This document shows positions 3,687 through 61,047 of a stretch of DNA of 64,000 nt, piece by piece. Both the position numbers and the translations under genes were made by a program. Under the pieces are notes generated by a model, which was not told the origin of the DNA, searched no databases, and was given only the letters and a program-made list of their open reading frames with translations. Source of the stretch: Betaproteobacteria bacterium (lineage in GTDB: Bacteria > Pseudomonadota > Gammaproteobacteria > Burkholderiales > SG8-41); assembly GCA_947486575.1 (NCBI GenBank), contig CANKUB010000012.1:1-64000 (forward strand), in the 5' to 3' direction. Numbering within the stretch: position 1 is the first letter of the stretch; each line of letters starts with the position of its first letter.

Positions 3687-3720
3687 GTAAGTAATTGTTT
3701 TTATTGGGTTATTTATAACG
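3687..3720 (+). repeat. AT-rich interspersed element, copy 1
   Basis: GTAAGTAATTGTTTTTATTG, continuing into TTATTTATAA. It lies after the LLM oxidoreductase gene, about 100 bases before the deacylase start. It is a member of the window-wide family with core TAASTATTTGTTTTTAWT. Confidence 0.6.
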
Positions 3721-3817
3721 AGTGTGCGGGCGCTACAGGTGGCCGCATTCGCCCGTCGCTTGCATGAATGCCGAAGTTGGCTCACGATTGCCCGATGTAT
3801 ACAGGGAGAGACTTGCC

Positions 3818-5530
3818 ATGCAATATGATCTGGTCATCAAGAACGGTACGGTGGTGGATGGTTCCGGCATGCCGCGTTACCGCGCGGATGTCGGCGTGAT
3901 TCAGGGCAAGATTGCCAGCATCGGGCGCATCCGTGAATCTGCAAAAGAAGTGCTGGATGCCGAAGGCCATGTGGTGGCACCGGGTTTTGTGGACGGCCAC
4001 ACGCACATGGATGCGCAGATTTTCTGGGATCCGCTCGGTACTTCATCCTGTTACCACGGTATTACCACGGCGGTGATGGGTAATTGCGGGTTTACGCTGG
4101 CGCCATGCGCCGCGCAGGACAAGCACATGGTGGTGCGCAACCTCCAACGTGCCGAGGACATTTCGCCTGCAGCGATGGAAGCTGGCATCCAGTGGAGCTG
4201 GACGACATATCCTGAGTTTCTTGAAACCATCGAGAAGCTGCCCAAAGGCATTAACTACGCGAGCTACGTCGGGCACTCGGCCATCCGCACGTTTGTCATG
4301 GGCGAGCGCGCTTTCACGGAAAAGGCGACTGAAGACGATTTGCGGGCGATGCAGCGCCAGGTGCATGACGCCATATCCGCAGGCGCGGTGGGCTTTACCT
4401 CGTCACGCTCACCCGCCCACGAGACGCCGGATGCGCGTCCGGTGGCGAGCCGCGCCGCAGCGTGGGACGAGGTGCGGCGTCTGGTCGGTGTGATGGGCAA
4501 GCTGAACGCGGGGCTGTTCGAGCTGGCAGGCGAGGGTGTGGATCGCATGGCGGGCGACCCCGGTGTGCGCGAATACCATAATCGCTTGCGTGACCTCGCG
4601 GTGGAGTCGGGCCGTCCGATTACGTTTGGCGTGTTCGGTCGGCGTGAGTCGCCAGGCACGTGGAAGCAATATCTCAATCTGCTCGACGAAACGGCTGCCG
4701 CAGGCGGACGTATGTTTGCGCAGGCGCACAGCCGCGCGCTCTCAGCGCTGCTGTCGTTCAAGACGCAGATGCCGTTTGACCGGTTGCCGTTGTGGAAAGA
4801 GATTCGCGCGCTGCCGCTGGAAGAGCAGAAACAAAAGCTGCGCGATCCCGCGTTGCGCGCCAGGCTGATCGAGGCGTCCGGCGCACGTGATAACCGGCAG
4901 GCGCGCGGCACCGAGGCGCGGCCCGCCGATTACGACTGGCTGTTTGTGTTCGACACTGTGAAAGGGCCGCATCGCTCGGTGGCCGAAGTCGCGCACGAGC
5001 GCGGGCAACATCCCGCTGAGACCATGATTGAACTCGCATTGGAGAAGGATTTAGACCTGTTCTTTTTGCAACCGGTGGCCAACGAAGACCAAGATGCTGC
5101 GCTGCAGATCATGCGTCACCCGCGTGCAGTGACCACGTTTTCAGATTCCGGCGCGCATGTTTCGCAACTGATGGATTCGTCGCTGCAAACGCATTTGCTG
5201 TCGCACTGGGTGCGCGAAAAGCAGGCGTTCACGCTGGAACAGGCGGTGCGCATGTTGTCACTGGTGCCTGCAACGTTATGGGGATTTCATGACAGAGGCT
5301 TGCTACGTGTAGGCATGGCGGCCGATATGGTGGTGTTCAATCCCGACACGATTATGGCCACCATGCCTGAGGTGGTGGACGATCTGCCTGCTGGCGCACG
5401 GCGCTTGGTGCAACGCACGCGCGGCATGGCAGCAACGGTGGTGAATGGCAAGATTGTGCTGCGCGATTGCAAGCCGACCGGTGCGCTATCGGGAAGCCTG
5501 CTGCGCGGGCCGCTGGGACAGCGGGCCTGA
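3818..5530 (+). CDS. N-acyl-D-amino-acid deacylase family amidohydrolase
   Basis: The 570-residue protein begins MQYDLVIKNGTVVDGSG, the small beta-sandwich typical of composite amidohydrolases. The metal motif HTHMD is at about residue 58, GNCGF at about 88 (a family-specific cysteine region), and the late aspartate appears in FSDSGAHV at about residue 445. The C-terminus returns to the sandwich (GMAADMVVFNPDTI). Length and motifs fit D-aminoacylases, cytoplasmic zinc enzymes that cleave N-acyl-D-amino acids; related dihydropyrimidinase-like activities are possible. The start at 3818 has GGGAGAG upstream. The longer frame from 3722 would add an unrelated 32 residues. A hairpin terminator follows at 5619. 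Confidence 0.85.
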   Translation: MQYDLVIKNGTVVDGSGMPRYRADVGVIQGKIASIGRIRESAKEVLDAEGHVVAPGFVDGHTHMDAQIFWDPLGTSSCYHGITTAVMGNCGFTLAPCAAQDKHMVVRNLQRAEDISPAAMEAGIQWSWTTYPEFLETIEKLPKGINYASYVGHSAIRTFVMGERAFTEKATEDDLRAMQRQVHDAISAGAVGFTSSRSPAHETPDARPVASRAAAWDEVRRLVGVMGKLNAGLFELAGEGVDRMAGDPGVREYHNRLRDLAVESGRPITFGVFGRRESPGTWKQYLNLLDETAAAGGRMFAQAHSRALSALLSFKTQMPFDRLPLWKEIRALPLEEQKQKLRDPALRARLIEASGARDNRQARGTEARPADYDWLFVFDTVKGPHRSVAEVAHERGQHPAETMIELALEKDLDLFFLQPVANEDQDAALQIMRHPRAVTTFSDSGAHVSQLMDSSLQTHLLSHWVREKQAFTLEQAVRMLSLVPATLWGFHDRGLLRVGMAADMVVFNPDTIMATMPEVVDDLPAGARRLVQRTRGMAATVVNGKIVLRDCKPTGALSGSLLRGPLGQRA

Positions 5531-5561
5531 GCGACGAATGGGTTCTGCGTGCGGCCTAGAG

Positions 5562-5590
5562 CAAGTGCGCAAAATCCCGCCGCGCACTTG
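5562..5590. terminator. hairpin after the deacylase gene
   Basis: CAAGTGCGC and GCGCACTTG form a 9-bp perfect stem around an 11-base loop, 32 bases after the deacylase stop. There is no T-run, so termination here would be weak or the hairpin may protect the mRNA end. Confidence 0.45.
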
Positions 5591-5618
5591 ACCGGCGTAA
5601 CGTCAAACCAAAATCAAA

Positions 5619-5648
5619 GCGGCAATCAAAACATCGATTGCCGCATTT
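5619..5648. terminator. terminator between convergent genes
   Basis: GCGGCAATC and GATTGCCGC form a 9-bp stem with an 8-base loop, followed by ATTTTG on the plus strand and preceded by an A-rich AAAATCAAA. It serves the deacylase gene on the plus strand and probably also the small gene on the minus strand. Confidence 0.65.
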
Positions 5649-5657
5649 TGTTACTGC

Positions 5658-5870: not shown

Positions 5871-6353
5871 GTCTGCTCTCCTTTTCGGGTGCTACCACTA
5901 TGATAAGAGCATCGAGCGTGCCAGCCTAAAAATGTACTGTGATGAAATACACATAAATTTTGTAAGCTATTGTTTTAAATAAATATTTATATAGCTGCCC
6001 CGCGTGACGCTATTCGCTAGCGCGGCCGTTATTGACGGGCAATTGACAATTTACGTCGTATGCCGACAAGCTTTCGACAAAACGCGGTCGGATTGCCGTA
6101 GTTTTGCGCACCATAGTTGATCGCAATGCACGCAGTTGGAGCGCGGAATTTCATCGCTGCGCGTGCGGTCTGGGTGCTGGTAACGACCACCATCATAACT
6201 AATTGAATAAAAACAATAACTTGTGTGTCGTCGTCCCGGTGAGCGATGGTTACATCCTGCAAGCAAGCGCTTATTCAACGCCCCGTGATTTTGTGCTCGC
6301 GCATCATGCTGTTTGCACATGTAAACTCGCCGCCATGAATAAGCAATGTTTCC
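5871..6353. other. AT-rich divergent intergenic region
   Basis: About 480 bases between the small acidic gene and the UbiH-like gene. It contains one copy of the AT-rich interspersed element (5962-5995). Two short minus-strand frames here (6029-6262, 6051-6320) have no ribosome site and no protein-like composition, so I see no gene. Promoters for both flanking genes should be here. Confidence 0.4.
5962..5995 (+). repeat. AT-rich interspersed element, copy 2
   Basis: GTAAGCTATTGTTTTAAAT followed by AAATATTTATATAG. One base shorter in the T-run than the consensus. It lies between divergent genes. Confidence 0.5.
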
Positions 6354-8959: not shown

Positions 8960-8967
8960 ATAGCCAA

Positions 8968-8999
8968 CATAACATATTGTTTTTATTAAGTAATTTATG
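8968..8999 (+). repeat. AT-rich interspersed element, copy 3
   Basis: CATAACATATTGTTTTTATT, then AAGTAATTTATG. It fills the gap between the convergent tonB-like and mltA genes, so it cannot be a promoter of either. Confidence 0.6.
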
Positions 9000-11597: not shown

Positions 11598-12287
11598 TTG
11601 AAGTTCACCCTGCCCTTGCAAATTAAAGCTGTCATGATCGATCTCGATGGTACGCTGCTCGATACCATTCCTGATCTTGCCGCTGCTGCCAACCTGATGC
11701 TGGCGGAACTGAAAATGCCCGCGCTGCCCGAAGCCACCATTCGTAATTTTGTCGGCAAGGGCATCAACAACCTGATCGAGCGCACGCTCACCAACAGCAT
11801 GGACGGCAAGCCCGATGCCGATTTATTTCAGCGCGCGCTCCCAGTGTATGAACGCAGCTACAAAGCGGTGAACGGCAAGCACACCACGATTTATCCCGGC
11901 GTGAAAGAGGGCCTGGATGTGCTGCGCGCGCAAGGCTACCCGCTGGCGTGCGTGACCAATAAAGTGGAGCGCTTTACCTTGCCGCTGCTTGATTACGTCA
12001 ACCTGTCGAGCTACTTTGTCAGCGTGGTCGCTGGCGACACGTTGCCGCAGCGCAAGCCCGATCCCGCGCAACTGCTGCATGCGTGCAGGCAAATGAATGT
12101 CGCGCCTGGCGAAATGCTGATGATCGGTGATTCGATTAACGATGCACAGGCCGCGCGCGCAGCGGGCTGCCCGATTTTTTGCGTAACCTACGGCTACAAC
12201 GAAGGCCACGACGTGCAGTCACTGGATGTTGATGCTATAGTAGCGTCGCTGGTTGAAGCTACCCGATTGATTTCAAAGAAAATTTAG
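11598..12287 (+). CDS. gph: phosphoglycolate phosphatase
   Basis: The 229-residue HAD-family phosphatase dephosphorylates 2-phosphoglycolate. HAD motif I is DLDGTLLDT at about residues 14-22, the cap domain follows, then motif II in CVTNKVE, and motifs III/IV in QRKPDP and MIGDSINDA. The start is a TTG at 11598 with GGAG eight bases upstream; the first ATG (11634) would fall just before motif I and remove the first strand, so TTG is preferred. rpe-gph-trpE is a conserved order in this class. Confidence 0.93.
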   Translation: MKFTLPLQIKAVMIDLDGTLLDTIPDLAAAANLMLAELKMPALPEATIRNFVGKGINNLIERTLTNSMDGKPDADLFQRALPVYERSYKAVNGKHTTIYPGVKEGLDVLRAQGYPLACVTNKVERFTLPLLDYVNLSSYFVSVVAGDTLPQRKPDPAQLLHACRQMNVAPGEMLMIGDSINDAQAARAAGCPIFCVTYGYNEGHDVQSLDVDAIVASLVEATRLISKKI

Positions 12288-12445
12288 TATTTATTCAGTC
12301 ATGATGTCGAAACACGAAAATTCAGGTTTGGCCGGGAAACGTTGGTGTCGCTGGCGCCGCTAAACGTTCGTCCCTTTTTGCCGCGCAGGTCATTTACGCG
12401 CGGCCCTGAATAAACGGTTTTCCCAGGTTTCGTATGGAGCAACGC

Positions 12446-13930
12446 ATGACTGAAGTCGAATTTAAACGGCTGGCCCTTGCTGGCTACAACCGCATTCCCC
12501 TCGTGCTTGAGACCTTTGCCGATCTTGACACGCCGCTGTCGATCTACCTCAAGCTCGCCAACAAGCCGTATACCTATTTGCTCGAATCCGTAGTCGGTGG
12601 CGAACGTTTTGGGCGTTATTCGTTCATTGGCCTCGCTGCAAAAACACGCATTGAAGTGCGTGGTTATCAGTGCACTGAATTTTTCGGCAGCGCCGTTACC
12701 AGACAAATCACAGTAGCCGACCCGCTGGATTACGTTGAAAAATATCTCGCGCAATTCAAAGTGGCGAAAGTTGAAACGCCCGCAACGCTGCCGCGTTTTT
12801 GCGGCGGACTGGTGGGTTATTTTGGCTACGACACCGTGCGCTACGTCGAGAAAAAGCTCGCGCATACACAAAAGCCCGATCAACTGGGCACGCCGGACAT
12901 TGCGCTGCTGGTATCGGAAGAAATCGCGATTGTTGATAATCTTTCGGGCAAACTGTATCTCGTGGTGTATGCACAGCCGGGTACGCCGGATGCGTATCAA
13001 AACGCCAGCGCACGCCTCGCCGAATTACTGAAAAAACTGCGTGAGCCCGTGGTGATTCCGCCAGCTAGCACCGCAGTATCAGAACCTGCCGTATCAGGCT
13101 TTGGCCGCGAGGCATATCACGCTGCCGTCGAGCGCGCAAAAAAATACATCTTCGAGGGCGACATCATGCAGGTGGTGCCGTCGCAGCGCATGGTAAAACC
13201 GCTGCGCGCAACACCGCTGGCGCTGTACCGCGCGCTGCGCACGTTGAACCCATCGCCGTACATGTTTTATTTTGACTTTGCTGATTTTCATGTCGTCGGC
13301 GCATCACCGGAAATTCTCGCGCGGCTTGAAAGTGGCGTCGTCACCGTGCGCCCCATTGCAGGAACACGCAAGCGCGGCGCAACCGTCGACGAAGACAATG
13401 CGCTGGCCGCAGAATTGCTCGCCGATCCAAAAGAGCGCGCCGAACACATCATGCTGATGGACCTCGGCCGCAACGACGCCGGACGTGTTTCACAAACCGG
13501 CAGCGTGAAAGTCACCGAGCAAATGGTGATCGAACGTTACTCGCACGTGATGCACATTGTTTCAAACGTTGAAGGCAAAATCAAACCGGGCTTGGGCGCG
13601 ATAGACGTGCTGCGGGCGACCTTTCCGGCGGGTACGGTTTCCGGTGCGCCCAAGGTGCGCGCGATGGAAATCATTGATGAACTGGAGCCGGTGAAGCGCG
13701 GCATCTACGCGGGTGCGGTCGGCTATCTTGGCTTTGACGGCAACATGGATGTGGCAATCGCGCTGCGTACGGGCGTGGTGAAAGACGGCATGCTCTATGC
13801 GCAGGCAGGCGGCGGCGTAGTGGCGGATTCCGAACCCGAAGCCGAATGGCAGGAAACGCAGAACAAGGCGCGTGCTTTGTTACGAGCGGCGGAGATTGCC
13901 GAGGCAGGACTGGATAGTAAAATTAGCTAA
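12446..13930 (+). CDS. trpE: anthranilate synthase component I
   Basis: The 494-residue enzyme starts MTEVEFKRLALAGYNRIPLV and, with the TrpG amidotransferase, makes anthranilate from chorismate. The N-terminal domain includes LLESVVGGERFGRYSFIG, which belongs to the tryptophan feedback site. The chorismate-binding domain contains QVVPSQRM, PSPYMFYF, RPIAGTRKRG, and the late motif TFPAGTVSGAPKVRAMEI, then GIYAGAVGYLGFDG. The start at 12446 has GGAG at 12436-12439; a frame from 12434 adds four residues. Unusually, trpG, trpD and trpC are not next but 4.2 kb further on. A leader peptide rich in Trp codons is not evident upstream. Confidence 0.96.
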   Translation: MTEVEFKRLALAGYNRIPLVLETFADLDTPLSIYLKLANKPYTYLLESVVGGERFGRYSFIGLAAKTRIEVRGYQCTEFFGSAVTRQITVADPLDYVEKYLAQFKVAKVETPATLPRFCGGLVGYFGYDTVRYVEKKLAHTQKPDQLGTPDIALLVSEEIAIVDNLSGKLYLVVYAQPGTPDAYQNASARLAELLKKLREPVVIPPASTAVSEPAVSGFGREAYHAAVERAKKYIFEGDIMQVVPSQRMVKPLRATPLALYRALRTLNPSPYMFYFDFADFHVVGASPEILARLESGVVTVRPIAGTRKRGATVDEDNALAAELLADPKERAEHIMLMDLGRNDAGRVSQTGSVKVTEQMVIERYSHVMHIVSNVEGKIKPGLGAIDVLRATFPAGTVSGAPKVRAMEIIDELEPVKRGIYAGAVGYLGFDGNMDVAIALRTGVVKDGMLYAQAGGGVVADSEPEAEWQETQNKARALLRAAEIAEAGLDSKIS

Positions 13931-13948
13931 TAAAAACAAAGTCTTATG
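13918..13948 (-). repeat. AT-rich interspersed element, copy 4
   Basis: On the minus strand: CATAAGACTTTGTTTTTATT, then AGCTAATTTTA. It overlaps the trpE stop codon and lies between convergent genes. Confidence 0.55.
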
Positions 13949-16828: not shown

Positions 16829-18117
16829 CCACCGGACGCGCTTCGCTGCTGGCCATCGCGCTGTGTGTGCTGATGGCGGGCACGGCTGCGTTTTTTGTCA
16901 GCGGGCAGCCGCAGCTGGCGGCGGCGTTTATTCCGGTGAATTACGCCAAGAGCGTTAGTTCCACAGGCGTTGCGAACCGGGCCGCCGTGGGCGCGCTAGA
17001 GCCCGAGATTGCATTGCAAAAAACGCTGGTCGAGATCAAAAATCATCGCATGGATAATGCGTTGACCGAGATCGACAAAGTGATCGGCGCCTATCCCAAT
17101 TTTCGTCTTGCACATCTGATCAAAGGCGATCTACTGATGGCGCGGGCGCATGCGATCAACACAGTAGGCAATGTTACCGATGCGCCGCAGGATCAACTTG
17201 AAGACCTGCGCGACGAAGCGCGCGCCCGCGTCGGCCGCTTGCAGAACGAACGCCCCAAAGATCAGGTGCCGCGCTATCTGGTGCAAATGCCGCCGGAGCA
17301 GCGTTATGCGCTGGTGGTTGATACGGCAAAATCCACGCTGTATGTGTTTGAAAACAAAGACGGCGAAGCGCGCTACGTGGCTGACTACTACGCCACCATC
17401 GGCAAAAACGGCATGGACAAATTTCGCGAGGGCGACAATAAAACACCGCTGGGTGTGTATCACGTTACCAGCAGCATCTCGCGCGAACAGTTAAACAATC
17501 GCTACGGCAAGTTGGCCGGGCAGTACGGCGTAGGCGCGCTGCCGATCAGTTACCCGAACGAGTGGGATAAACGCAGCGGGCGTAACGGCAGCGGCATCTG
17601 GTTGCACGGCGTGCCGTTCGATACCTACAGTCGTGCGCCGCGCGCGAGCAACGGTTGTGTCGCGCTGACCAACGAAGATTTCATGGCCATTGCGGCAAAC
17701 TCCCAAGTGGGCGTAACGCCAGTGATTATCGCCAACGGCATCGAATGGGTCAGCGCGGACGCCACGCGCGCCGTTCGGCAAGATCTTGCGCAGGCGGTCG
17801 AAGGCTGGCGCCGTGATTGGGAAAGCCTCAACACGGATAACTACCTCAAACATTATTCGCCAGCAAAATTTTCCACCGGTACACAGAAATTCGATGCGTG
17901 GGCGGAACACAAATACAGAGTCAACGCGGGTAAAACCTGGCTCAAGGTCAAGGTTGAAAACGTCAGCATGTTTTTTTATCCGGGTGCCGCTGATCTCGCG
18001 GTGGTGACGTTCGATCAGGATTACAACAGCAGCAATCTCGCCGGACAATCGCGCAAACGCCAATATTGGATGAAAGAATCCGGCGGCTGGAAAATTGTTT
18101 ACGAAGGTGCTGGCTGA
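16795..18117 (+). CDS. L,D-transpeptidase (YkuD) with NTF2-like C-terminal domain
   Basis: The 440-residue protein starts MADPARTKRRLTTGRASL with an N-terminal signal anchor (ALCVLMAGTAAFFVSG). A helical TPR-like stretch covers about 75-165, followed by the YkuD domain from about residue 175 (RYALVVDTAKSTLYVFE) with the catalytic block HGVPFDTYSRAP, then RASNGCVALTNED; the Cys is the nucleophile. A Cds6-like NTF2 domain closes the protein (VEGWRRDWESLNTDNYL to KIVYEGAG). Such enzymes cross-link peptidoglycan 3-3 or attach proteins to it. The start overlaps the previous gene by 34 bases, which suggests coupling; a later start would cost the signal anchor. Confidence 0.88.
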   Translation: MADPARTKRRLTTGRASLLAIALCVLMAGTAAFFVSGQPQLAAAFIPVNYAKSVSSTGVANRAAVGALEPEIALQKTLVEIKNHRMDNALTEIDKVIGAYPNFRLAHLIKGDLLMARAHAINTVGNVTDAPQDQLEDLRDEARARVGRLQNERPKDQVPRYLVQMPPEQRYALVVDTAKSTLYVFENKDGEARYVADYYATIGKNGMDKFREGDNKTPLGVYHVTSSISREQLNNRYGKLAGQYGVGALPISYPNEWDKRSGRNGSGIWLHGVPFDTYSRAPRASNGCVALTNEDFMAIAANSQVGVTPVIIANGIEWVSADATRAVRQDLAQAVEGWRRDWESLNTDNYLKHYSPAKFSTGTQKFDAWAEHKYRVNAGKTWLKVKVENVSMFFYPGAADLAVVTFDQDYNSSNLAGQSRKRQYWMKESGGWKIVYEGAG

Positions 18118-18147
18118 AATAATTTAATTAAAACAATAGATTACGTG
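18118..18147 (-). repeat. AT-rich interspersed element, copy 5
   Basis: On the minus strand: CACGTAATCTATTGTTTTAA, then TTAAATTATT. It occupies most of the 42-base gap between the L,D-transpeptidase stop and the trpG start. Confidence 0.55.
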
Positions 18148-19751: not shown

Positions 19752-19779
19752 CATAAGTATTTGTTTTTAAACAAATTTA
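19751..19779 (+). repeat. AT-rich interspersed element, copy 6
   Basis: CATAAGTATTTGTTTTTAAA, then CAAATTTA. It spans exactly from the trpD stop codon to the trpC ATG, so it is the whole trpD-trpC intergenic segment and must carry the trpC ribosome-binding region, yet it has no Shine-Dalgarno sequence. Confidence 0.6.
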
Positions 19780-20571
19780 ATGTCCGATATTCTGCGGCGC
19801 ATCGTAGCCGTTAAGTCACAGGAAGTTGCCGCCGCAAAACTTGCTGTGTCGCCCGCCGAGGTTGAGCAGCAAGCCAAAGCCGCAACACCGCCGCGCGATT
19901 TTGCTGGCGCACTGCGCGCAAAAATCGCTGCAGGTAAATCTGCAGTGATCGCGGAAATCAAAAAAGCGAGCCCCAGCAAAGGCATACTGCGCGATCACTT
20001 TGAACCAGCGCTGATTGCAAAAAGTTACGCGCAGCACGGTGCGGCGTGTTTGTCGGTGTTGACCGATCAGCAGTTTTTTCAGGGCGATATCGCGCACATG
20101 AAATCGGCGCGCGCGGCATGTGCGTTGCCGGTGTTGCGCAAGGATTTTATGATTGATCCGTATCAGATTTATGAAGCACGCGCGGCAGGTGCGGATTGCA
20201 TATTGCTGATTGTGGCCGCGCTGGATTTGCCGCGCATGCGCGAACTGGAATCCGTGGCGATGGGCTTGGGCCTGGCGGTGCTGGTGGAAGCGCATGACGG
20301 TGATGAACTGGAGTTGGCGTTAAACCTCAAGACGCCGCTGATCGGCATCAACAACCGCAATCTGCGCACGTTTGAAACGCGGCTTGAAACCACGCTGGGG
20401 CTGCTGGAGCGCGTGCCCGCTGGTCGCCTGGTAATTACTGAAAGCGGTATTTTAAAAGCGGACGATGTAGCGTTGATGCGGCAGCACAAGGTGAATTGTT
20501 TTCTGGTGGGCGAGGCGTTTATGCGTGCGCCAGAGCCGGGAGTTGAACTCGAGCGGCTATTTGGAGCGTGA
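19780..20571 (+). CDS. trpC: indole-3-glycerol phosphate synthase
   Basis: The 263-residue TIM-barrel enzyme closes the indole ring of carboxyphenylaminodeoxyribulose phosphate. It starts [20 protein letters not shown]. Catalytic and phosphate-binding parts are [13 protein letters not shown] (about residue 57-69, catalytic Lys), [42 protein letters not shown] and ITESGIL. No PRAI (TrpF) domain is fused. The usual Shine-Dalgarno sequence is missing because the AT-rich element abuts the ATG; an A/T-rich start region may compensate. Confidence 0.96.
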
Positions 20572-21662: not shown

Positions 21663-22433
21663 TTATCGGATGACGGATTTTAGCCCATACCAGAGCAGCC
21701 CTATGAGCTCGTGAAAGAAGTGGCTGCTGTCTTGCAGCGCGTAGGCATGCGGCACAAAATCCCTAGGCGTAAGGCGCAAGCTCGTCGCATATTGGGTGGG
21801 GGCAATCACCACGTGAAAGCCGGCCTGCTGGAATATCCATTTCGAGCGCGGCATGTGCCATGCGTGGGTAACCAGATAGACGCGGTTGATGCCCAAAGGT
21901 GCCAGCATGGCGCGGCTCGCACGGGCGGTTTCCAGTGTGTTGGCTGATGTCGCTTCAACCCAGGGGACCGGCACCTGGAAATCGTGTTCTAACACCCTTT
22001 TCATGTTCTGCGCTTCGGAAATCGCACCCCCTTCGGGCGCACCGCCGCTGACCAGGATGGGTTTGCCGGTCAGTCGGTGCAGATGCGCGCCGTAGCGCAG
22101 CCGCGTCAGCGTGGATTCGCTCACGGTGTCGCTGCCGCCAAATTCCGGCGCAGCAAAGTATTGGCCGCCACCCAGTATCACGATCGCCTGCGGTGGTGGC
22201 CCGGACAGTATGTTCAGCGGGTCGGTTGGTGCCGGTTCCAGGGCTTGCAGCAGCGTGCGCGATAGCAAGGGCGTGGATAGCGCCCACAACGCGATAAGGC
22301 TCAACAGGATCAGCGCTTTGCCGGAGCGCGGATGTTTGCGCAGCCGCAAAACACCCCAGCCCGTCAGCACCATCAGGCAACCCGGCGGCAAGAACCATAC
22401 GGAAATCAGCTTTTCGATTAGCCAGAATGACAT
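21663..22433 (-). CDS. YdcF/ElyC family membrane protein (DUF218)
   Basis: The 256-residue protein starts MSFWLIEKLISVWFLPPG with two N-terminal membrane segments (about 8-28 and 38-58), followed by a DUF218 domain from about residue 80: AIVILGGGQYF, LRYGAHLHRLTGKPILVSGG, TSANTLETARASRAML, VYLVTHAWHMPRSKWIFQ. ElyC of E. coli, with the same layout, affects undecaprenyl-phosphate-dependent envelope synthesis, so a cell-wall role is likely. The start codon lies inside an AT-rich interspersed element. Confidence 0.85.
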   Translation of the reverse strand: MSFWLIEKLISVWFLPPGCLMVLTGWGVLRLRKHPRSGKALILLSLIALWALSTPLLSRTLLQALEPAPTDPLNILSGPPPQAIVILGGGQYFAAPEFGGSDTVSESTLTRLRYGAHLHRLTGKPILVSGGAPEGGAISEAQNMKRVLEHDFQVPVPWVEATSANTLETARASRAMLAPLGINRVYLVTHAWHMPRSKWIFQQAGFHVVIAPTQYATSLRLTPRDFVPHAYALQDSSHFFHELIGLLWYGLKSVIR

Positions 22434-22466
22434 AACTATATGTTTTTAAATGAGTTTCATAATTTA
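22431..22466 (+). repeat. AT-rich interspersed element, copy 7
   Basis: CATAACTATATGTTTTTAAA, then a TGAGTTTCATAATTTA tail. The copy overlaps the start codon of the ElyC-like gene on the minus strand. Confidence 0.55.
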
Positions 22467-22505
22467 AGCGGATTTCTCAGCCTGCCGCCAACGGTAGCCT
22501 AAAAT

Positions 22506-22535: not shown

Positions 22536-22613
22536 TAGCGGTTCCCTTCGGGCGGTACTGATGCCGGGGTGTGCTGTAAGTGTAAGGAAACAAGGTTAAA
22601 CAGGGTTCGCAAG

Positions 22614-30147: not shown

Positions 30148-30184
30148 TTTAAAAAAATATCTTAAAATCAAATAGTTGAATTAA
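30148..30184 (-). repeat. AT-rich interspersed element, copy 8
   Basis: On the minus strand: CAACTATTTGATTTTAAGAT, then an A/T tail. It follows the tyrS stop and ends about 30 bases before the LVIVD-repeat gene start. Confidence 0.5.
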
Positions 30185-31735: not shown

Positions 31736-31863
31736 TCCTCTGCTCCGGTAAATTGAATCATCCACGCATAGCGTACGCCAACTGTGCCAAGGCGTAATGT
31801 CTGTTACGCAAGCACGCGGCAACGGGTTCTACATGCAACGCAACACCATAACGCAGGATGGGA

Positions 31864-31892
31864 AAATGTACAATAAAAACAAATACTTACGA
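31864..31892 (-). repeat. AT-rich interspersed element, copy 9 (spans gene start)
   Basis: On the minus strand: CGTAAGTATTTGTTTTTATT, then GTACATTT. It covers the start codon and first eight codons of the Bug receptor gene at 31866. Confidence 0.55.
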
Positions 31893-34051: not shown

Positions 34052-34079
34052 GTAACGCATTGATTTTAAATGTATTTAA
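34052..34079 (+). repeat. AT-rich interspersed element, copy 10
   Basis: GTAACGCATTGATTTTAAAT followed by GTATTTAA. It lies between the divergent amidohydrolase and Bug receptor genes. Confidence 0.45.
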
Positions 34080-34141
34080 CAAAAAACCCATAGAGTGTGT
34101 AGCATGGAATCCATCGGGTCTATTCCTTTCACCGGGTATCT

Positions 34142-37199: not shown

Positions 37200-37449
37200 G
37201 CGCCGACAGGCTATCGCTAGCGTACTGTATGAGCTGGCAGTGACTTTTGTGACAAATTGATTTTGTTCATTATTATCGGCATTTACGTCAACGGCGAACG
37301 GCAAGTTCGCAGGTTCACCTGTAGCTGGATCTATCGTGTAATTGTCTGCGGCGGCGGCATTCAGCGGGCAGAAACCGGCATTCACAGCGCCCGCTCGAAT
37401 TGCAGGCAAAATACAGACCTAATTCAACTTTCCCCGAAAGGAACGCTTT

Positions 37450-40378: not shown

Positions 40379-40436
40379 GTAGGTGTTTGCGTGGTGCGCC
40401 CAGGTAAGTGAAAGCGCGCAGTTCAGACTGTAACCA

Positions 40437-40466
40437 CAAAAATGATTAAAAACAAATAGTTATGTG
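40437..40466 (-). repeat. AT-rich interspersed element, copy 11
   Basis: On the minus strand: CATAACTATTTGTTTTTAAT, then CATTTTTG. One of the closest matches to the core. It is about 60 bases upstream of the diguanylate cyclase start. Confidence 0.6.
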
Positions 40467-42288: not shown

Positions 42289-42422
42289 TATTTTCCTCCT
42301 TTGCGAGTGAGCAAAGCTATTCTGGCACGCTACACGCGCACTTACAAAACCCCCTTTTCAAATCTGGTCAATTGGGCGCACAATAACCTGTCAATGAGAC
42401 GTATGAACAACTGGAGGCTGAC

Positions 42423-43013: not shown

Positions 43014-44309
43014 TTAATGTGTTGCGGTCGCCGGTATCGCGGGCAGTGGCCCCTGCGTCAGATTATACAAATGCCGTTTGCGCACCAGCCACATCGACAG
43101 CGCGACGAAGCCACCGAACATGCCGATCACAATGTAAATGGATAAATCAATACTGATCAGCAGGGCATAGAGTCCGATCATGATCAGAATTGACAGATTC
43201 TCGTTAAAGTTTTGCACGGCAATCGAGTGCCCGGCGCCCATCAGGATGTGACCACGATGCTGCAACAGCGCGTTCATCGGCACCACGAAAAATCCCGCCA
43301 GCGCGCCGATTATGATGATCAGCGGCACGGCAAAGTAAACCGAGCGTACGACGATCATGGTCATCACGATCAGCCCCATCATTATGCCCATCGGAATCAC
43401 ATTCACGGCGCGGTTGAGCGGCACGATTTTAGCTGCGACAATCGCGCCTATCGCTATGCCGAGTGCGCACACACCTTGCAGATAGGTAGCCTGCGACAGG
43501 CTGTAACCCAGCGCGGTTTCGGCCCACTTGAGCACGATGAATTGCAGCGTCGCCCCTGCCCCCCAGAACAGCGTGGTGGTGGCAAGCGAAATTTGCCCCA
43601 GCTTGTCACTCCACAGCAGCTTCATGCAATGCGAGAATTCGCGCATCAGATACAGCGGATTGCGATTCACCATTTTGTGATCGACGCCGGTGTTCGGAAT
43701 ATACAGATTGAAAATCGCGGCTGTGATGTAGAGCACCATGATAAAGGCAATGGCAATTTCGCCGGGGCTATCAATTGTCGACAGAAAGTGCGGTAACTCG
43801 ATCGCCAGCAACCGATTGGAAACGGCATCACTGACCAGCGCGCCGCCCAGCAACGTGCCCAGAATGATCGAGCCCACGGTCAAGCCTTCAATCCAGCCAT
43901 TGGCGATTACCAGTTTATGATGTGGCAGGTATTCGGTGAGGATGCCGTATTTGGCGGGTGAGTAGGCCGCTGCGCCCAACCCGACCACGGCATAACCCAC
44001 CAGTATGGTGACGTAATCGTCAACGCCGGGAATCGACCACCAATCGTGGGTGAAGATCATCAGGCAGCCGAGGATTTTGATGGTGTTGGTGATAAACATC
44101 ACGCGGCCTTTGGGCATCGAGTCAGCAAAGGCACCCACCACTGCGGCGAACAACACATACGACACCGTGAAGAAAAACTTCAACATGGGTGTCATCCATT
44201 CCGGCGCGAACAGTTGCATCAGCAACGCAATGGCAGCAACCAGTAACGCGTTATCCGCCAGCGACGAGAAAAACTGCGCCGCCATGATGATGTAAAACCC
44301 GAAAGGCAT
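43014..44309 (-). CDS. lplT: lysophospholipid transporter LplT
   Basis: The 431-residue MFS protein starts MPFGFYIIMAAQFFSSLADN, with about 12 membrane segments. LplT features include SLADNALLVAAIALL, LFAAVVGAFADSMPKGRVM and SPAKYGILTEYLPHHKLV. It flips lysophospholipids across the inner membrane for reacylation. No fused or adjacent acyltransferase (Aas) is seen. In many betaproteobacteria lplT is next to alr; here a Bug receptor gene has been placed between them. Confidence 0.92.
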   Translation of the reverse strand: MPFGFYIIMAAQFFSSLADNALLVAAIALLMQLFAPEWMTPMLKFFFTVSYVLFAAVVGAFADSMPKGRVMFITNTIKILGCLMIFTHDWWSIPGVDDYVTILVGYAVVGLGAAAYSPAKYGILTEYLPHHKLVIANGWIEGLTVGSIILGTLLGGALVSDAVSNRLLAIELPHFLSTIDSPGEIAIAFIMVLYITAAIFNLYIPNTGVDHKMVNRNPLYLMREFSHCMKLLWSDKLGQISLATTTLFWGAGATLQFIVLKWAETALGYSLSQATYLQGVCALGIAIGAIVAAKIVPLNRAVNVIPMGIMMGLIVMTMIVVRSVYFAVPLIIIIGALAGFFVVPMNALLQHRGHILMGAGHSIAVQNFNENLSILIMIGLYALLISIDLSIYIVIGMFGGFVALSMWLVRKRHLYNLTQGPLPAIPATATH

Positions 44310-44595
44310 CTTATTGATTTATAAGAGAATTTTATAATCCGGTGCTGAGCCGGTACCACCGTGGCGACGTTATACCATAATTTAGTGATGCTTCGCCGGG
44401 GTATGGGGGCACCGTCGCGCCACCGGATCAGTTGTGGTTGAATGTAGGAATGCGTGTTTTTGACCGTTTTCTGTAAATATCGTTTTTTGCATTCGCTCGA
44501 CAATTTCTTGTTTGCGCTGGCGCTGACATTTGCAGTGCGCGCCGCGTAGTTGCCGGATTTGCCGACTGTTTTATGTCATGTTTGAGGAGGACGTT

Positions 44596-45582
44596 GTGCA
44601 AAAACCAATCGGGTATCCTAAGGTTTTATTTTTAATCAGCATTCTTGTGGCCAGCGTGGTTGATATGGGTGCACAGGCGCAGTCGTGGCCATCACGCCCC
44701 ATACGCTTTATCGTGCCGTTTCCACCCGGCGGCGGCACCGACGTCAACGCGCGCATCATGGCGCCGCGCCTCACCACAGCGCTGGGCCAGCAAGTGGTAG
44801 TGGAAAATCGACCCGGCGCAGGCGGCATGCTGGGTGCCGAGCTGGTGGCAAAATCCGCACCGGATGGCTACAACATGGTGATTGCCACCATCGGACCGAT
44901 TGCAATCAATCCGAGCCTTTATTCGAAGATGACCTACGATCCGGCGAAGGAACTCGCACCCGTATCCATCACCGGCGAAGTGCCCAACGGCTTGGTGGTG
45001 CATCCGACATTGCCTGCAAAATCCTTGAAGGAATTGATTGCACTCGCCAAACAGCGTCCGCGTGAACTGAATTACGGCTCGTCCGGCCCGGGCGCCGGGG
45101 ATCATCTCGCCGGTGAAATGCTGAACGTGATGGCGGGCATACGCATGACCCATGTGCCCTACAAAGGCGGTCCGCCCGCGATGGTGGATTTGATGTCGGG
45201 CAACATACAGTTGATCTTTGCCACGCTCGCCACCAGCATGCCCTACATACGCGCGGGTCGCGTGCGCACGCTGGCGGTGGCGAGCGCGCAACGCTTTGCC
45301 CTGTTGCCCGACGTGCCCACCGTCGCTGAAGCGGGCGTGCCCGGATTTGCCATCAACAACTGGGCGGGTGTGTTTGTCGCTGGTGGCACGCCACGCCCGA
45401 TCATCGAGCGCCTCAATAGCGAAATCGTCAAGGCGCTCGCACCGCCCGATGTGCGGCAGAAGCTGCTGGAAATGGGTTTGGTGGCAGGCACCAATACGCC
45501 TGAACAATTCACCAGCTACATCCAGGCGGAAACCGTGCGCTGGGCCAGGGTGGTAAAAGATGCGGGTATCAAGCTCGATTAA
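44596..45582 (+). CDS. Bug/TctC-family solute-binding receptor (6)
   Basis: The 328-residue protein starts with GTG at 44596 (VQKPIGYPKVLFLIS), supported by GAGGAGG five bases upstream; the frame goes back to 44530 without a better site. The signal peptide ends at GAQAQ. Segments are WPSRPIRFIVPFPPGGGTDV, VVENRPGAGGMLGAELVAKSAPDGY and THVPYKGGPPAMVDLMSG. This is the most canonical of the eight receptors in the window. It interrupts the usual lplT-alr neighbourhood. Confidence 0.93.
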   Translation: MQKPIGYPKVLFLISILVASVVDMGAQAQSWPSRPIRFIVPFPPGGGTDVNARIMAPRLTTALGQQVVVENRPGAGGMLGAELVAKSAPDGYNMVIATIGPIAINPSLYSKMTYDPAKELAPVSITGEVPNGLVVHPTLPAKSLKELIALAKQRPRELNYGSSGPGAGDHLAGEMLNVMAGIRMTHVPYKGGPPAMVDLMSGNIQLIFATLATSMPYIRAGRVRTLAVASAQRFALLPDVPTVAEAGVPGFAINNWAGVFVAGGTPRPIIERLNSEIVKALAPPDVRQKLLEMGLVAGTNTPEQFTSYIQAETVRWARVVKDAGIKLD

Positions 45583-45590
45583 TACACCCT

Positions 45591-45622
45591 ACGCATTTGT
45601 TTTTAAATGATTATTTAATAAC
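45591..45622 (+). repeat. AT-rich interspersed element, copy 12
   Basis: ACGCATTTGTTTTTAAATGA, then TTATTTAATAA. It ends a few bases before the alr ATG, leaving no Shine-Dalgarno sequence there. Confidence 0.55.
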
Positions 45623-50480: not shown

Positions 50481-50513
50481 CGTAAAAAATTGTTTTTATT
50501 GAATTATTTTATT
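50481..50513 (+). repeat. AT-rich interspersed element, copy 13
   Basis: CGTAAAAAATTGTTTTTATT, then GAATTATTTTA. It lies after the EamA gene and about 40 bases before the hydrolase start. Confidence 0.55.
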
Positions 50514-53550: not shown

Positions 53551-54819
53551 ATGACCGAACCCACTATAACCTGCCCCAACTGCAACACCGAGATCAAGCT
53601 CACGGAATCGCTCGCCGCCCCCTTGCTGGCAGCGACCAAGCACGATTTCGACAAGCGCCTCGCGCAAAAAGATGCCGACATTGCCACGCGCGAATCAACG
53701 CTGCGTGAACGCGAGGCCGCGTTAAGCAAAGCCAAAGCAGCCATCGACGATCAGGTTGCTGAAAAGTTAAAGCACGAGCGCAGCAAGATCGTCGCCGAGG
53801 AAGCCAAAAAAGCCAAGCAAGTGGCGGCTAATGACGTAGAGCAAAAAATCAATGAAATCAAAGTGTTAAATGAAGTAATCAAACAGCGCGAAGAAAAACT
53901 CGCCGAAGCGCAAAAGGCGCAGGCCGATTTAATTCGCAAGCAGCGCGAACTCGACGACGCCAAGCGCGAGCTGGACCTCACCGTAGAAAAGCGTATTCAG
54001 GCAGGGCTTGCCGCCACACGCGAGCAGGCGCGCAAAGAAGTTGAAGAACAGCAAAAACTCAAAGTCGCCGAAAAAGAGCAAACCATACAGGCGATGCAAA
54101 AGCAGATCGAAGAACTCAAGCGCCGCGCCGAGCAAGGCTCGCAACAGTTGCAGGGCGAAGTGCAGGAGCTGGAACTTGAAAATATTTTGCGCGCCAAATT
54201 TCCGTTTGACACCATCGAGCCCGTGCCAAAAGGCGAATTCGGCGGCGACGCACTGCAACGTGTAGTCAGCGCCAGCGGCCAGCCGAGCGGAACCATACTG
54301 TGGGAATCAAAGCGCACCAAAAACTGGAGCGACGGCTGGCTGACCAAGCTGCGCGAAGACCAGCGCACCGCCAAAGCAGAAATTGCCGTGTTAGTGACAC
54401 AAGTGCTGCCCAAGGGCGTGGAATCCTTCGATGTCGTCGATGGCGTATGGGTGACAACCCCGCGCGCAGCACTGCCTGTGGCCACCGTGCTGCGCCACAC
54501 CCTGCTGCAAGTCAGCATGGCGCGGCAAGTTTCCGAAGGCCAGCAGACTAAAACGGAAATGGTGTATCAGTACTTAACCGGCCCGCGCTTCCGTCATCGC
54601 GTTGAAGCCATTGTGGAGGCGTTTTCATCGATGCAGGAAGACCTGGATCGGGAACGCAAGGCCATCATGAAACAATGGGCCAAGCGCGAAGAACAGATTG
54701 AGCGCGTGATGGGCGCGACGGTGGGGATGTATGGGGATTTGCAGGGGATTGCGGGGAAGTCGTTGCAGGAGATTGAGGGACTTGAATTAGTAGCTCTTGA
54801 CGTGCCCGACACACTCTGA
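53551..54819 (+). CDS. DUF2130 protein with long coiled coil
   Basis: The 422-residue protein starts MTEPTITCPNCNTEIKLTES, a short zinc-ribbon-like beginning with only CPNC visible. A long charged coiled coil covers about 40-210 (KAAIDDQVAEKLKHERSKIV, EEQQKLKVAEKEQTIQAM). The DUF2130 nuclease-like domain follows (LELENILRAKFPFDTIEPV, GDALQRVV, GTILWESKRTKNWSDGWL). The E-x-K in WESKRT and the preceding D are like a PD-(D/E)XK core, so a DNA-processing role is possible; this is inference. GGAG supports 53551; a start at 53521 overlaps hepT. Confidence 0.82.
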   Translation: MTEPTITCPNCNTEIKLTESLAAPLLAATKHDFDKRLAQKDADIATRESTLREREAALSKAKAAIDDQVAEKLKHERSKIVAEEAKKAKQVAANDVEQKINEIKVLNEVIKQREEKLAEAQKAQADLIRKQRELDDAKRELDLTVEKRIQAGLAATREQARKEVEEQQKLKVAEKEQTIQAMQKQIEELKRRAEQGSQQLQGEVQELELENILRAKFPFDTIEPVPKGEFGGDALQRVVSASGQPSGTILWESKRTKNWSDGWLTKLREDQRTAKAEIAVLVTQVLPKGVESFDVVDGVWVTTPRAALPVATVLRHTLLQVSMARQVSEGQQTKTEMVYQYLTGPRFRHRVEAIVEAFSSMQEDLDRERKAIMKQWAKREEQIERVMGATVGMYGDLQGIAGKSLQEIEGLELVALDVPDTL

Positions 54820-54857
54820 GCACCAACATATGCTATTTCTTTGAAATTATTATTTCA

Positions 54858-54886
54858 TAAAAATATTTCAAAACAAATAGTTACGG
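54858..54886 (-). repeat. AT-rich interspersed element, copy 14
   Basis: On the minus strand: CCGTAACTATTTGTTTTGAA, then ATATTTTTA. It is about 28 bases before the MmgE/PrpD gene. Confidence 0.6.
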
Positions 54887-58355: not shown

Positions 58356-59411
58356 GTGTTGAAAATCGGCATTCTGCTGGGCGACGATATCGGTCTTGAG
58401 GTCGTTCCTGAAGCAGTCAAGGTGATGAAAGCGGCGGCGGTTAAAACGGGCTTGGCCATCGCATGGAGCGAACACGCCATTGGTAAATTGGGGCATGAGC
58501 TGCATGGGCATACGTTTCCGCTGCAAACACAAGCGGAACTGGCAAAGCTGGACGGCTGGTTGTGCGGCCCGATTGGTCATAATGCTTATCCGCGCAACGA
58601 TCCGACATGGATCATGCCGCCGGTGCGCAAGCACTTTGAGCTTTATGCGAATATCAAGCCGGTGAAGTCCTATCCGAATATTCCTTCGGTGCACAAGAAC
58701 GTAGATATTGTTTTTCTGCGAGAAGTGACAGAAGGCTTTCAGTCGAGCGATACTGTGGTGGCTGGCGCAGGCGAGTTCCGGCCGAATGATGAAATCTCCA
58801 TCGGCTCGCGCGTGGTAACGCGCAAGGGTGCCAACCGCGTGGCGCGGGCTGCATTCGAGATCGCGCGCACGCGCAGGATGAAGCGGGTGACGTCGGTGCA
58901 TAAAGAACCGACCTACCGTCTGGTGTGCGGCATGTTTGCCGAGGAATGCCGCAAGGTGGCGAAGGAATTCCCCGATGTGCAATTCAACGAAGTGCTGGTT
59001 GATGGCTTTGCCATGAAAGTGACCATGAAGCCAACGCAATTTGACGTAGTGGTAACCACCAATCAGTTTGGCGATATCTTGACGGACTTGGGCGCAGGCA
59101 TCGTCGGTGGACTGGGTCTCGCGCCGGGACTGGTGTGTGGCGAAACACAGGCAATGGCGCAGGCAACTCACGGCTCCGCGCCGGACATTGCCGGTAAAAA
59201 TATTGCGAACCCGTACGCGTTGATCATGTCGGGCCAGATGCTGCTCGAATGGCTGGGGCGCAAGCGCAATGATGCCCAAGCGGTTGAGACGGCAGCGCTG
59301 ATCGATCGCGCGATGGAAAGGGTCATCGCGGAACAGAAACAGCTCACACCTGACCTTGGCGGCACCGCAAGCACCACGCAGATGGGTGCCGCTGTTGTTG
59401 CGGAACTATAA
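58356..59411 (+). CDS. isocitrate/isopropylmalate dehydrogenase family protein
   Basis: The 351-residue protein starts with GTG at 58356 (VLKIGILLGDDIGLEVVPEA), with GGGAGA upstream. The family signature is present as VTTNQFGDILTDLGAGIVGG (Asp metal ligands, about residues 233-252) and HGSAPDIAGKNIANP for NAD binding. The substrate loop differs from LeuB (REVTEGFQSSD), so the enzyme is more likely a tartrate/malate-type or other beta-decarboxylating dehydrogenase. It is divergent from the DapA-like gene, and both may serve one catabolic route. Confidence 0.88.
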   Translation: MLKIGILLGDDIGLEVVPEAVKVMKAAAVKTGLAIAWSEHAIGKLGHELHGHTFPLQTQAELAKLDGWLCGPIGHNAYPRNDPTWIMPPVRKHFELYANIKPVKSYPNIPSVHKNVDIVFLREVTEGFQSSDTVVAGAGEFRPNDEISIGSRVVTRKGANRVARAAFEIARTRRMKRVTSVHKEPTYRLVCGMFAEECRKVAKEFPDVQFNEVLVDGFAMKVTMKPTQFDVVVTTNQFGDILTDLGAGIVGGLGLAPGLVCGETQAMAQATHGSAPDIAGKNIANPYALIMSGQMLLEWLGRKRNDAQAVETAALIDRAMERVIAEQKQLTPDLGGTASTTQMGAAVVAEL

Positions 59412-59438
59412 AAAACTCAATAAAAACAAATAGTTAGG
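59409..59438 (-). repeat. AT-rich interspersed element, copy 15
   Basis: On the minus strand: ACCTAACTATTTGTTTTTAT, then TGAGTTTTTTA. It directly follows the dehydrogenase stop codon. Confidence 0.6.
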
Positions 59439-59525
59439 TTTGAAATGATTTGTTGCTATTGCCGAATGCATTGTGATTCTCTATTGTTGCGCTGCTCTAA
59501 AACCAACCCCGAGGAGAGGAACATC

Positions 59526-59801
59526 ATGAAACGTTCGATAGCAGTATTCGCGGCAACGATGTTGGTAGGCACGGCAGCCTATGCGTATCAGGTCACCGGC
59601 CCCGTGCTTGAAGTGACCGACACCAAAATCGTGGTGGAAAAAGATAAAGAGAAATGGGAAATCGCGCGCGACAAGGAAACCAAAGGCGCCAAAGATATCA
59701 AGAAAGGTGACCGCGTTACCGTGCAATACAACATGACGGCGACCAGCATCGAATCCAAAGGTGGAGCCAAAAAAGACGACAAAGCGCCGGTCAAGAAATA
59801 A
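59526..59801 (+). CDS. small exported hypothetical protein (91 aa)
   Basis: It starts MKRSIAVFAATMLVGTAAYA, a signal peptide cut near AYA (residue 20). The mature part is a small beta-rich, Lys-rich domain: QVTGPVLEVTDTKIVVEKDK, EKWEIARDKETKGAKDIKKG, DRVTVQYNMTATSIES, ending KKDDKAPVKK. The pattern is like small OB/SH3-like periplasmic proteins of proteobacteria. GAGGAGAGGA precedes the ATG and a strong terminator follows, so it is a complete single-gene unit. Confidence 0.8.
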   Translation: MKRSIAVFAATMLVGTAAYAYQVTGPVLEVTDTKIVVEKDKEKWEIARDKETKGAKDIKKGDRVTVQYNMTATSIESKGGAKKDDKAPVKK

Positions 59802-59820
59802 CGTTGCCGCGCTTGTGCAA

Positions 59821-59848
59821 AAGGAAGGCCGCTGGCCTTCCTTTTTTT
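59821..59848 (+). terminator. terminator after the small exported protein gene
   Basis: AAGGAAGGCC and GGCCTTCCTT pair over ten bases with a GCT loop, followed by T's. Confidence 0.9.
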
Positions 59849-59959
59849 GTTGATGTGAGTCGTATTTGTGTGAGTCGCGCAAGCGGTAACAACACCACAA
59901 CGGCCATTTCGGCCTGCGCGGGAACGACAGGGTTGAGTGTTACTTTCCAGGAGAGCACT

Positions 59960-60934
59960 GTGGTGCATGACGTAGCAAGAATCAGCATTGTCGTGGTGAC
60001 TGTTTTGATGTGTGCAACAGGTTGTATCGCGCACGCTCAATCACAATACCCCGCCAAACAAATCCGCCTGATCGTTCCCAACGCGCCCGGCGGTGGCGCG
60101 GATACTTCGGCGCGCATCGTTGCGCAGGGGCTGACACCAGCGCTGGGCCGCTCGGTGGTGGTGGACAACCGCCCCGGCGCGGGCGGCAATCTCAGTGGTG
60201 AAATTGCGGCTCGCTCCGCGCCGGATGGTTACAGCGTGTTGTGGGGCAGCGTGTCGCATGCGGTGGGCGTCAATCTGTACAGCAGGCCGGGCTATGATCT
60301 GGTTAAGGATTTTGTGCCGGTATCGCTGCTGGTGTTAAGCCCGTATGGTGTGGCGTTGCATCCTTCGTTGCCCGCGCGTTCCATTAAGGACTTGATTGCC
60401 TTGGCGAAAGCGCAGCCGGGGCATATCAACTACGCCACCTCAGGCAGTGGAACGTTTCTGGCCGCTGCGCTGTTTTGCGATATGGCTGGCGTGAAAATGA
60501 CCAACGTGTCGTACAAAGGCGGTGCGCCGGGGCTGGTGGCGCTGCTGTCAGGCGAGGTGTCGATGACCATGACGTCCGTCGCATCGATACTGCCGCATGT
60601 TAAGACCGGCAAGGCGCGACTGCTGGCAGTAACGTCTGCACAGCGCACACCCTCTGCGCCGGAATTTCCCACGGTGAGCGAAGCCGGTCTCAAGGAGTTC
60701 GACGCCATTTCCTGGTACGGGCCCATGATGCCCGCTGGCACGCCAAAGGAAATTGTTGATCGCTGGCTGATTGAATCGCAGAAGCTCATCAAGCAACCCG
60801 AAGTGCGCGAACGCATGATTGCCAGCGGCGTTGATCCCGTGGGCACGACACAGGAAGAATTTGCCGCCTATGTGCGCACCGAGGTCGCGAAGTGGGCGCG
60901 CGTGATCAAGGCCACAGGCGCGAAGCCGGATTGA
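59960..60934 (+). CDS. Bug/TctC-family solute-binding receptor (8)
   Basis: The 324-residue protein starts with GTG at 59960 (VVHDVARISIVVVTVLM), preceded by CAGGAGAG; a second GTG follows directly at 59963. The signal peptide ends at AHAQS. Segments are YPAKQIRLIVPNAPGGGADT, VVDNRPGAGGNLSGEIAARSAPDGY and TNVSYKGGAPGLVALLSGE. The frame is open far upstream to 59804, but that part crosses a terminator and lacks a signal peptide. Confidence 0.92.
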   Translation: MVHDVARISIVVVTVLMCATGCIAHAQSQYPAKQIRLIVPNAPGGGADTSARIVAQGLTPALGRSVVVDNRPGAGGNLSGEIAARSAPDGYSVLWGSVSHAVGVNLYSRPGYDLVKDFVPVSLLVLSPYGVALHPSLPARSIKDLIALAKAQPGHINYATSGSGTFLAAALFCDMAGVKMTNVSYKGGAPGLVALLSGEVSMTMTSVASILPHVKTGKARLLAVTSAQRTPSAPEFPTVSEAGLKEFDAISWYGPMMPAGTPKEIVDRWLIESQKLIKQPEVRERMIASGVDPVGTTQEEFAAYVRTEVAKWARVIKATGAKPD

Positions 60935-61013
60935 GTTTGCCTGCTCTGGCCAAATAACATCTGCGGTCTTTCATGTGGTGTTGATCGCAATCAACGTGCC
61001 TATCGTGCACTGT

Positions 61014-61047
61014 GGTAACATATTGTTTTTATTGATAAATTTAATTT
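61014..61047 (+). repeat. AT-rich interspersed element, copy 16
   Basis: GTAACATATTGTTTTTATTG, then ATAAATTTAATTTT. It ends three bases before the ATG of the adaptor gene, so there is no Shine-Dalgarno sequence at that start. Confidence 0.6.

Follow-up and report, generated by a model that had tools for sequence, protein, structure and literature searches.

A regularly spaced, conserved array of predicted IHF sites in betaproteobacterial genomes in which HU is mostly undetected

What are the short AT-rich sequences that recur every few kilobases along the genome of a Betaproteobacteria bacterium of the SG8-41 lineage (Burkholderiales)? The question is raised by the 64,000-nucleotide stretch analysed here (assembly GCA_947486575.1, contig CANKUB010000012.1, positions 1 to 64,000; hereafter the window), in which an earlier note, made from the letters alone, had listed 16 copies of an oriented core followed by A/T-rich bases and knew of no described element with this core. 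We find it well supported by sequence comparison that the element is a site of the integration host factor (IHF) type, with CAA-NNNN-TTA in fixed register and an A/T tract on the side expected for such a site. Probably, these elements are high-affinity sites, as predicted, for IhfA/IhfB, selected about every 3 kb, which help to fold the chromosome and perhaps compensate for the loss of HU, the usual packaging protein.

The copies are real and far more numerous than first seen. A pattern search of the window with up to three mismatches returns all 16 sites where they had been reported, against a mean of 0.04 in dinucleotide shuffles (largest shuffle, 1). Across the genome (5.35 Mb in 282 contigs), the 18-bp core with up to two mismatches has 770 matches (389 + 381), compared with one (0 + 1) for the reversed control, which decisively dismisses the idea that copies are no more frequent than in random AT-rich gaps. 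The matrix scan that the note had proposed gives the same picture: a matrix derived from 836 kb of genome stretches and refined on them finds 255 sites with a score above 15, against 11 in the reversed sequence. This density, one per 3.2 kb rather than the one per 4 kb estimated before, scales from 836 kb to about 1,600 elements in the 5.35 Mb genome. In the window the refined matrix places 25 sites, including nine weaker ones missed at first (5963, 12260, 18115, 29759, 34053, 37250, 42265, 44307 and 53840).

The oriented core with its A/T-rich bases stands as described, and its extent is corrected: about 29 bp are conserved, TAASTATTTGTTTTTAWW-nA-nWWWTTT, in which the core is followed by a loose position, an A and an A/T tract with T-rich columns 25-27. 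A weak bias covers a few bases 5' of the element, and the columns beyond are background. Neither inverted repeats nor a palindromic unit nor a stable hairpin was found in the five copies that were folded (z-scores -1.49 to 0.71), of which four show nothing notable and the fifth a weak fold, a small qualification to the reported lack of inverted repeats.

Read on the reverse strand, the element runs from the A/T tract through AAAAACAA and NNNS to TTA, so that its core has the WATCAANNNNTTR arrangement preceded by an A/T tract. This is the IHF site with one consistent departure (WAACAA for WATCAA), and the core is in that sense a described one. At a single offset, agreement of the elements with WATCAANNNNTTR averages 7.94 of the 9 positions (next-best offset, 5.7), which none of 5,000 column-permuted matrices equalled; 119 of 143 elements match at least eight positions at that offset, and 18 match all nine. 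The least conserved core columns (5-7) are among the N positions of the consensus, and the A/T tract, in matrix columns 20-29, lies on the same side and at approximately the same distance as in the H' site of phage lambda. Like the lambda attP sites H1, H2 and H', which have a CAA-N4-TTR core and an A/T tract 9-16 bp away on the same side, the element is asymmetric and about 30 bp long.

A matrix derived from Burkholderiales elements only was then applied to 20 kb of lambda, on both strands (39,938 positions). The attP sites H2, H' and H1 take ranks 6, 9 and 71 with their register exactly kept. Permuting the matrix gave nothing as good in 2,000 trials, and reversed and complemented matrices rank the sites from 876 downward. 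This exact-register ranking is the valid form of the test, and ranking the known lambda sites by top-10 counts (P=0.08) is suggestive only, because AT-rich regions draw any AT-rich matrix. The first-ranked lambda position lies upstream of the promoter pL, where IHF presumably binds about 86 and 180 bp upstream; pL is stimulated by IHF according to the Giladi papers, as they are cited in PMC1784095. In 200 kb of Escherichia coli K-12 the matrix has 14 matches above 10, against none in the reversed sequence, and none above 15; unlike the genome studied here, this stretch of E. coli has no site as strong.

The unaltered consensus is also enriched. Occurrences of WATCAANNNNTTR and of its reversed control number 480 vs 74 in this genome, 924 vs 24 in the congener G006, 366 vs 70 in the congener G009, which is nearly without the AACAA dialect, and 300 vs 44 in G014 of genus g2. 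Since the canonical form is enriched alongside it, the A-for-T departure looks like a lineage dialect. The proteins that would bind are both intact: IhfA and IhfB score above the cut-offs of the NCBIfam equivalogs NF001401 and NF001222, and the RIEIRGFGSF stretch of IhfB recurs unchanged in the E. coli protein of the solved structure.

How are the sites placed? Genes were called with a purpose-made simple hexamer model, by which starts may be misplaced. Many sites are intergenic, as the earlier note had described, yet they are not confined to gaps, as 47 of the 255 in the 836 kb lie at least 100 bp within genes. Both orientations are used, as also reported: in co-directional gaps 56 sites are on the same strand as the genes and 61 on the opposite one, so there is no strand preference. 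Sites occupy 21% of convergent, 20% of co-directional and 32% of divergent gaps, and convergent ends are not special; the two sites reported between convergent genes at 8968 and 13918 were recovered at 8970..8998 and 13918..13946.

Along the chromosome the sites are spaced more evenly than chance would have it. The median distance between successive sites is 2.7 kb. The coefficient of variation (CV) is 0.63, compared with 0.98 in 3,000 random placements (lowest, 0.83), and 5 distances fall below 500 bp where 35.5 are expected; 0 of the 3000 simulations were as regular. Placement in random gaps instead of at random positions leaves the regularity unexplained (CV 0.65 vs 0.89). For the 47 sites deep in coding sequence, the nearest other site is a median of 2,766 bp away, against 1,195 bp for random coding positions (p=1e-9); statistically, intragenic sites occur where intergenic ones are lacking. 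Sites are spread across all sampled contigs, and the spacing is over-regular in another genus too (G092, 400 kb in one contig, 40 sites, CV 0.69, P=0.011).

Comparison between species, the other check proposed at the outset, used window gaps with flanking genes that have a match in congeners, and it shows that the sites are conserved in place and orientation. The congener has a site in 19 of 31 gaps where this genome has one and in none of 110 where it has not, and all 19 shared orthologous sites (19/19) have the same orientation. In 20 pairs of shared sites, ungapped identity is 0.68 within the element and 0.36 in the adjacent 20 bp (p=7e-5, indicative only, as the pairs share phylogeny). The clearest case is the gap at 22434-22613, where the site is recognisable in nine genomes and the flanks have diverged. 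Since position and orientation are kept while flanks diverge, these are not transposing repeats.

Within the genus, 13 of 14 genomes carry 221-1,096 copies, and G009 carries 16. The genera g6, g7 and g8 of the same family have 24-726 copies, and g2, g3, g4, g5 and g9 have 0-6, except for G014 (24). Two site dialects exist within the family, and densities range from about 50 to 200 per Mb inside one genus. None of 368 other genomes of the class that were searched for the core stands out above the reversed control. Among named relatives, exact 28-mer carriers are metagenome-assembled genomes (MAGs) of Burkholderiales or Betaproteobacteria, including Ga0077527 and ACE_PRO63, with one gammaproteobacterial exception. 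Balneatrix alpica, which has the exact 28-mer, was considered as a further array and rejected, its match being nearly isolated (9 matches in 3.7 Mb). By identity of RpsA, the element-rich genera g1, g6, g8 and g7 are nearest this genome, a sequence relationship compatible with one origin of the array in them. Several MAG contigs deposited as Bordetella parapertussis (L150, L151, L155 and others) carry the element; it appears that they are mislabelled and belong to this family.

The distribution of the array can be set beside that of HU. In nearly all element-bearing genomes, this one included, IhfA and IhfB are the only HU/IHF family members returned by a Pfam search, and no HU was detected in this genome by HU/IHF profile search. 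Genera g2, g3 and g5 mostly carry an additional HU-type protein. Proteins were typed directly in selected genomes, and HU was assigned elsewhere from the best-scoring full-length profile matches. The 21 HU-bearing genomes of the family have no element array, and their excess of IHF consensus sites is 6-18 per Mb; in 35 without detected HU the median excess is 40 (Mann-Whitney p 4e-7, with the two classes phylogenetically clustered and so not independent evidence); for the HU-bearing G022 and G077, genome-wide pattern counts replace those from sampled stretches. G014 is the only member of genus g2 that combines good completeness with lack of HU; its excess is 45 per Mb, and that of 12 HU-bearing members of the genus is 9-18. 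The trp gene tree has support too weak for counting independent HU losses.

Some observations on HU stand apart from this comparison. The HU family is described as omnipresent in bacteria (PMC5683647); that many genomes of this betaproteobacterial family are apparently without HU is itself unusual. In the 1.7 Mb of G083 (genus g3, 72% complete, no HU-type match), IHF consensus sites number 76 against 3 for the control, far more than in its congeners; G083 is possibly another HU-less lineage with an array. The element-poor G009 has 48% GC in the sample, no ComEC match and almost none of the element dialect; it encodes an extra IhfB-like paralogue just under the NCBIfam cut-off (L133, G009:C113:578-844).

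Taken together, these data suggest a scheme in which the sequence, well supported as an IHF site, would be bound by IhfA/IhfB and sharply bent, as the known biochemistry of IHF predicts. Selection acts on regular presence along the chromosome and not on single neighbouring genes, as the statistics show: sites avoid closeness and intragenic sites appear far from intergenic ones. The summed bends may shape or compact the nucleoid. The array may have been built up in lineages that lost HU, programmed IHF bends replacing part of its non-specific bending, a step suggested by co-occurrence with exceptions. We infer both the architectural role and the link with HU. The fullest version, in which a lattice of IHF bends about 3 kb apart, laid down after HU loss and passing through genes where needed, replaces non-specific packaging, is possible and is put forward tentatively. 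If true, it would mean that the folding pattern of a chromosome is specified in cis over its full length.

Several points weigh against this explanation. When the letters of the consensus are simply shuffled, 8 of the 9 IHF positions are still reached in 12% of cases, which makes agreement of letters weak by itself; independent tests were therefore sought, and those of register, matrix and lambda carry the weight. In its dominant form the element carries A in place of the T of the E. coli consensus. The absence of HU comes from profile searches of draft genomes, and four HU-less genomes are without an array (G016 and G024 of g4, G082 and G084 of g3), so that loss of HU does not suffice. Possibly the element-rich genera form a single clade, and independent events are for that reason few. 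Finally, regular spacing is also a feature of DNA uptake sequences (PMC1939737).

This last point leads to the main rival, which is that the element is a DNA uptake signal, that is, a sequence specific to the species, which the cell surface would recognise during natural transformation and which biased uptake and recombination would accumulate, with its likeness to the IHF site coincidental or secondary. As in the uptake signal sequences (USS) of Haemophilus and the DNA uptake sequences (DUS) of Neisseria, for which spacing and intragenic fractions have been reported (PMC1939737), there are hundreds of copies on both strands, some of them intragenic, evenly spaced and conserved in position. 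These shared traits are not decisive, because a lattice of IHF bends predicts them too. ComEC is found in nearly all genomes of the family and is unmatched in the element-poor G009, as uptake would have it; yet it is just as present in genera without any element and has no match in the element-bearing draft G046, so that ComEC does not discriminate between the two readings. Unlike USS and DUS, the element has a core that fits IHF, and it co-varies with HU rather than with ComEC, for which uptake offers no reason. Moreover, we know of no uptake core that the element resembles, its motif predicts the lambda IHF sites in register, and the canonical consensus is enriched in parallel even in the ComEC-less G009. 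We therefore regard an uptake signal as unlikely. A protein other than IHF, an unrecognised nucleoid or segregation factor with an IHF-like preference, would suit the one-position departure of the dialect, IHF binding itself being predicted from sequence; it is made improbable by the site architecture, which fits IHF in register, and by the finding that IhfA and IhfB are the only HU/IHF family members in this genome.

IHF commonly acts at promoters, and each site might serve an adjacent one, the genome simply having many such sites; divergent gaps are somewhat more often occupied (32% vs 20%). Such local regulation has equally little probability, since sites also occur between convergent genes and inside genes without strand preference, the over-regular spacing persists when placement is restricted to available gaps, and intragenic sites lie far from intergenic ones. 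With no fixed orientation and all gap types occupied, a promoter role cannot explain all sites, as had been argued from the window, and a promoter or terminator element was rejected on the strand counts and on the use of every gap type. Of the identities first offered, a DNA-protein or nucleoid-protein site is favoured, and an mRNA element and a mobile repeat are disfavoured. An mRNA element was rejected for want of strand preference and of structure in the folded copies. A tiny mobile repeat spread by copying, similar to repetitive extragenic palindromic (REP) sequences or miniature inverted-repeat transposable elements (MITEs), is very improbable. Hundreds of near-identical interspersed copies would fit it, as would the trpD-trpC junction, which is overlapping in several relatives and is here a gap holding an element. 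IHF sites do occur in some small mobile repeats (PMC2229807), and REP and bacterial interspersed mosaic elements (BIMEs) with IHF sites (RIB/RIP) are likewise interspersed intergenic repeats; in contrast to these, our element consists wholly of the IHF site, with no palindrome, terminal inverted repeats, composite structure or sign of mobility in the copies studied (stable hairpins were sought in five). The reading was rejected on shared positions (19/31 vs 0/110) and orientation (19/19) with diverged flanks; moreover, avoiding neighbours and filling long intervals inside genes is not the behaviour expected of a mobile unit.

Chromosome-folding IHF sites, the explanation we prefer, would also differ from other sequences with a purpose at the scale of the chromosome. 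The element is short and spread over the chromosome like the FtsK-orienting polar sequences (KOPS), matS and Chi; it differs from them in sequence, in having no strand preference relative to genes and in lying on all sampled contigs. The usual view of IHF sites is that they are degenerate, lie scattered and belong to particular promoters, origins or sites of recombination. Unlike known IHF sites, the copies here are near-uniform, carry the WAACAA dialect in most of the genus, number about 1,600 per genome, are regularly spaced and include intragenic ones. The site type is ordinary, and it is the regular genome-wide array in genomes with no detected HU that appears undescribed; a literature search of incomplete coverage found no description of a regularly spaced array of IHF sites. 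If the interpretation is true, about 1,600 strong, conserved and regular sites would allow a direct test of whether sequence-positioned bends set nucleoid structure, and would also address the bend spacing that is required and bacterial life without HU. The family offers natural replicates, with about 50 to 200 sites per Mb within a genus, two dialects, and HU-bearing sister genera that lack the array.

The 25 sites of the window are as follows; scores are those of the refined matrix, and "earlier pattern" marks matches to the pattern of the earlier note.

3688..3716, +, element, intergenic, co-directional genes; score 37.3; earlier pattern
5963..5991, +, element, intergenic, divergent gap; score 34.0; missed earlier
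6195..6223, -, element, in the divergent gap of the 5963 site, 232 bp from it; score 28.8; earlier pattern
8970..8998, +, element between convergent genes; score 33.9; earlier pattern
12260..12288, +, weak element, gene 3' end; score 17.7, lowest in the window; possibly a chance match
13918..13946, -, element between convergent genes; score 29.3; orthologous site, also in G002
18115..18143, -, element, gap before trpG; score 28.8; also in G001 and G007
19754..19782, +, element filling the trpD-trpC gap; score 33.8
22433..22461, +, element, divergent gap; score 23.2; recognisable in all eight congeners compared
26750..26778, -, element inside coding sequence; score 30.1
29759..29787, -, element inside coding sequence, opposite to the gene; score 28.0
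30150..30178, -, element, intergenic, canonical TTGATTTT core; score 26.2; also in G001
31861..31889, -, element near a predicted gene's 5' end; score 33.3; earlier pattern
34053..34081, +, element, intergenic, canonical ATCAA variant; score 24.2
37250..37278, +, element, intergenic, canonical ATCAA variant; score 21.0
40434..40462, -, element, intergenic, exact core; score 31.9; earlier pattern
42265..42293, +, element across a gene end, canonical ATCAA variant; score 25.5; also in G001
44307..44335, +, element at a gene start, divergent gap; score 22.7; also in G001
44619..44647, +, weak element near a gene's 5' end; score 20.0; earlier pattern
45590..45618, +, element before alr; score 27.1; earlier pattern; the same gap in G001 has one
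50483..50511, +, element, intergenic; score 35.0; earlier pattern
53840..53868, -, element inside coding sequence, canonical ATCAA variant; score 22.3
54855..54883, -, element, intergenic; score 31.7; earlier pattern
59408..59436, -, element, intergenic, exact core; score 38.7, the window's highest; earlier pattern
61016..61044, +, element before the gene at 61051/61078; score 32.2; earlier pattern

The two opposite-orientation elements at 5963-6223, 232 bp apart, are among the closest pairs in the genome sample. The trpD-trpC gap element is also found in G002, G005, G007, G010 and G013 and, in weaker form, in G001. At this junction (19752-19779; loci L059-L081), several relatives have a trpD-trpC overlap of 4-8 nt; in this genus the gap is almost wholly element, and trpC has no recognisable Shine-Dalgarno sequence.

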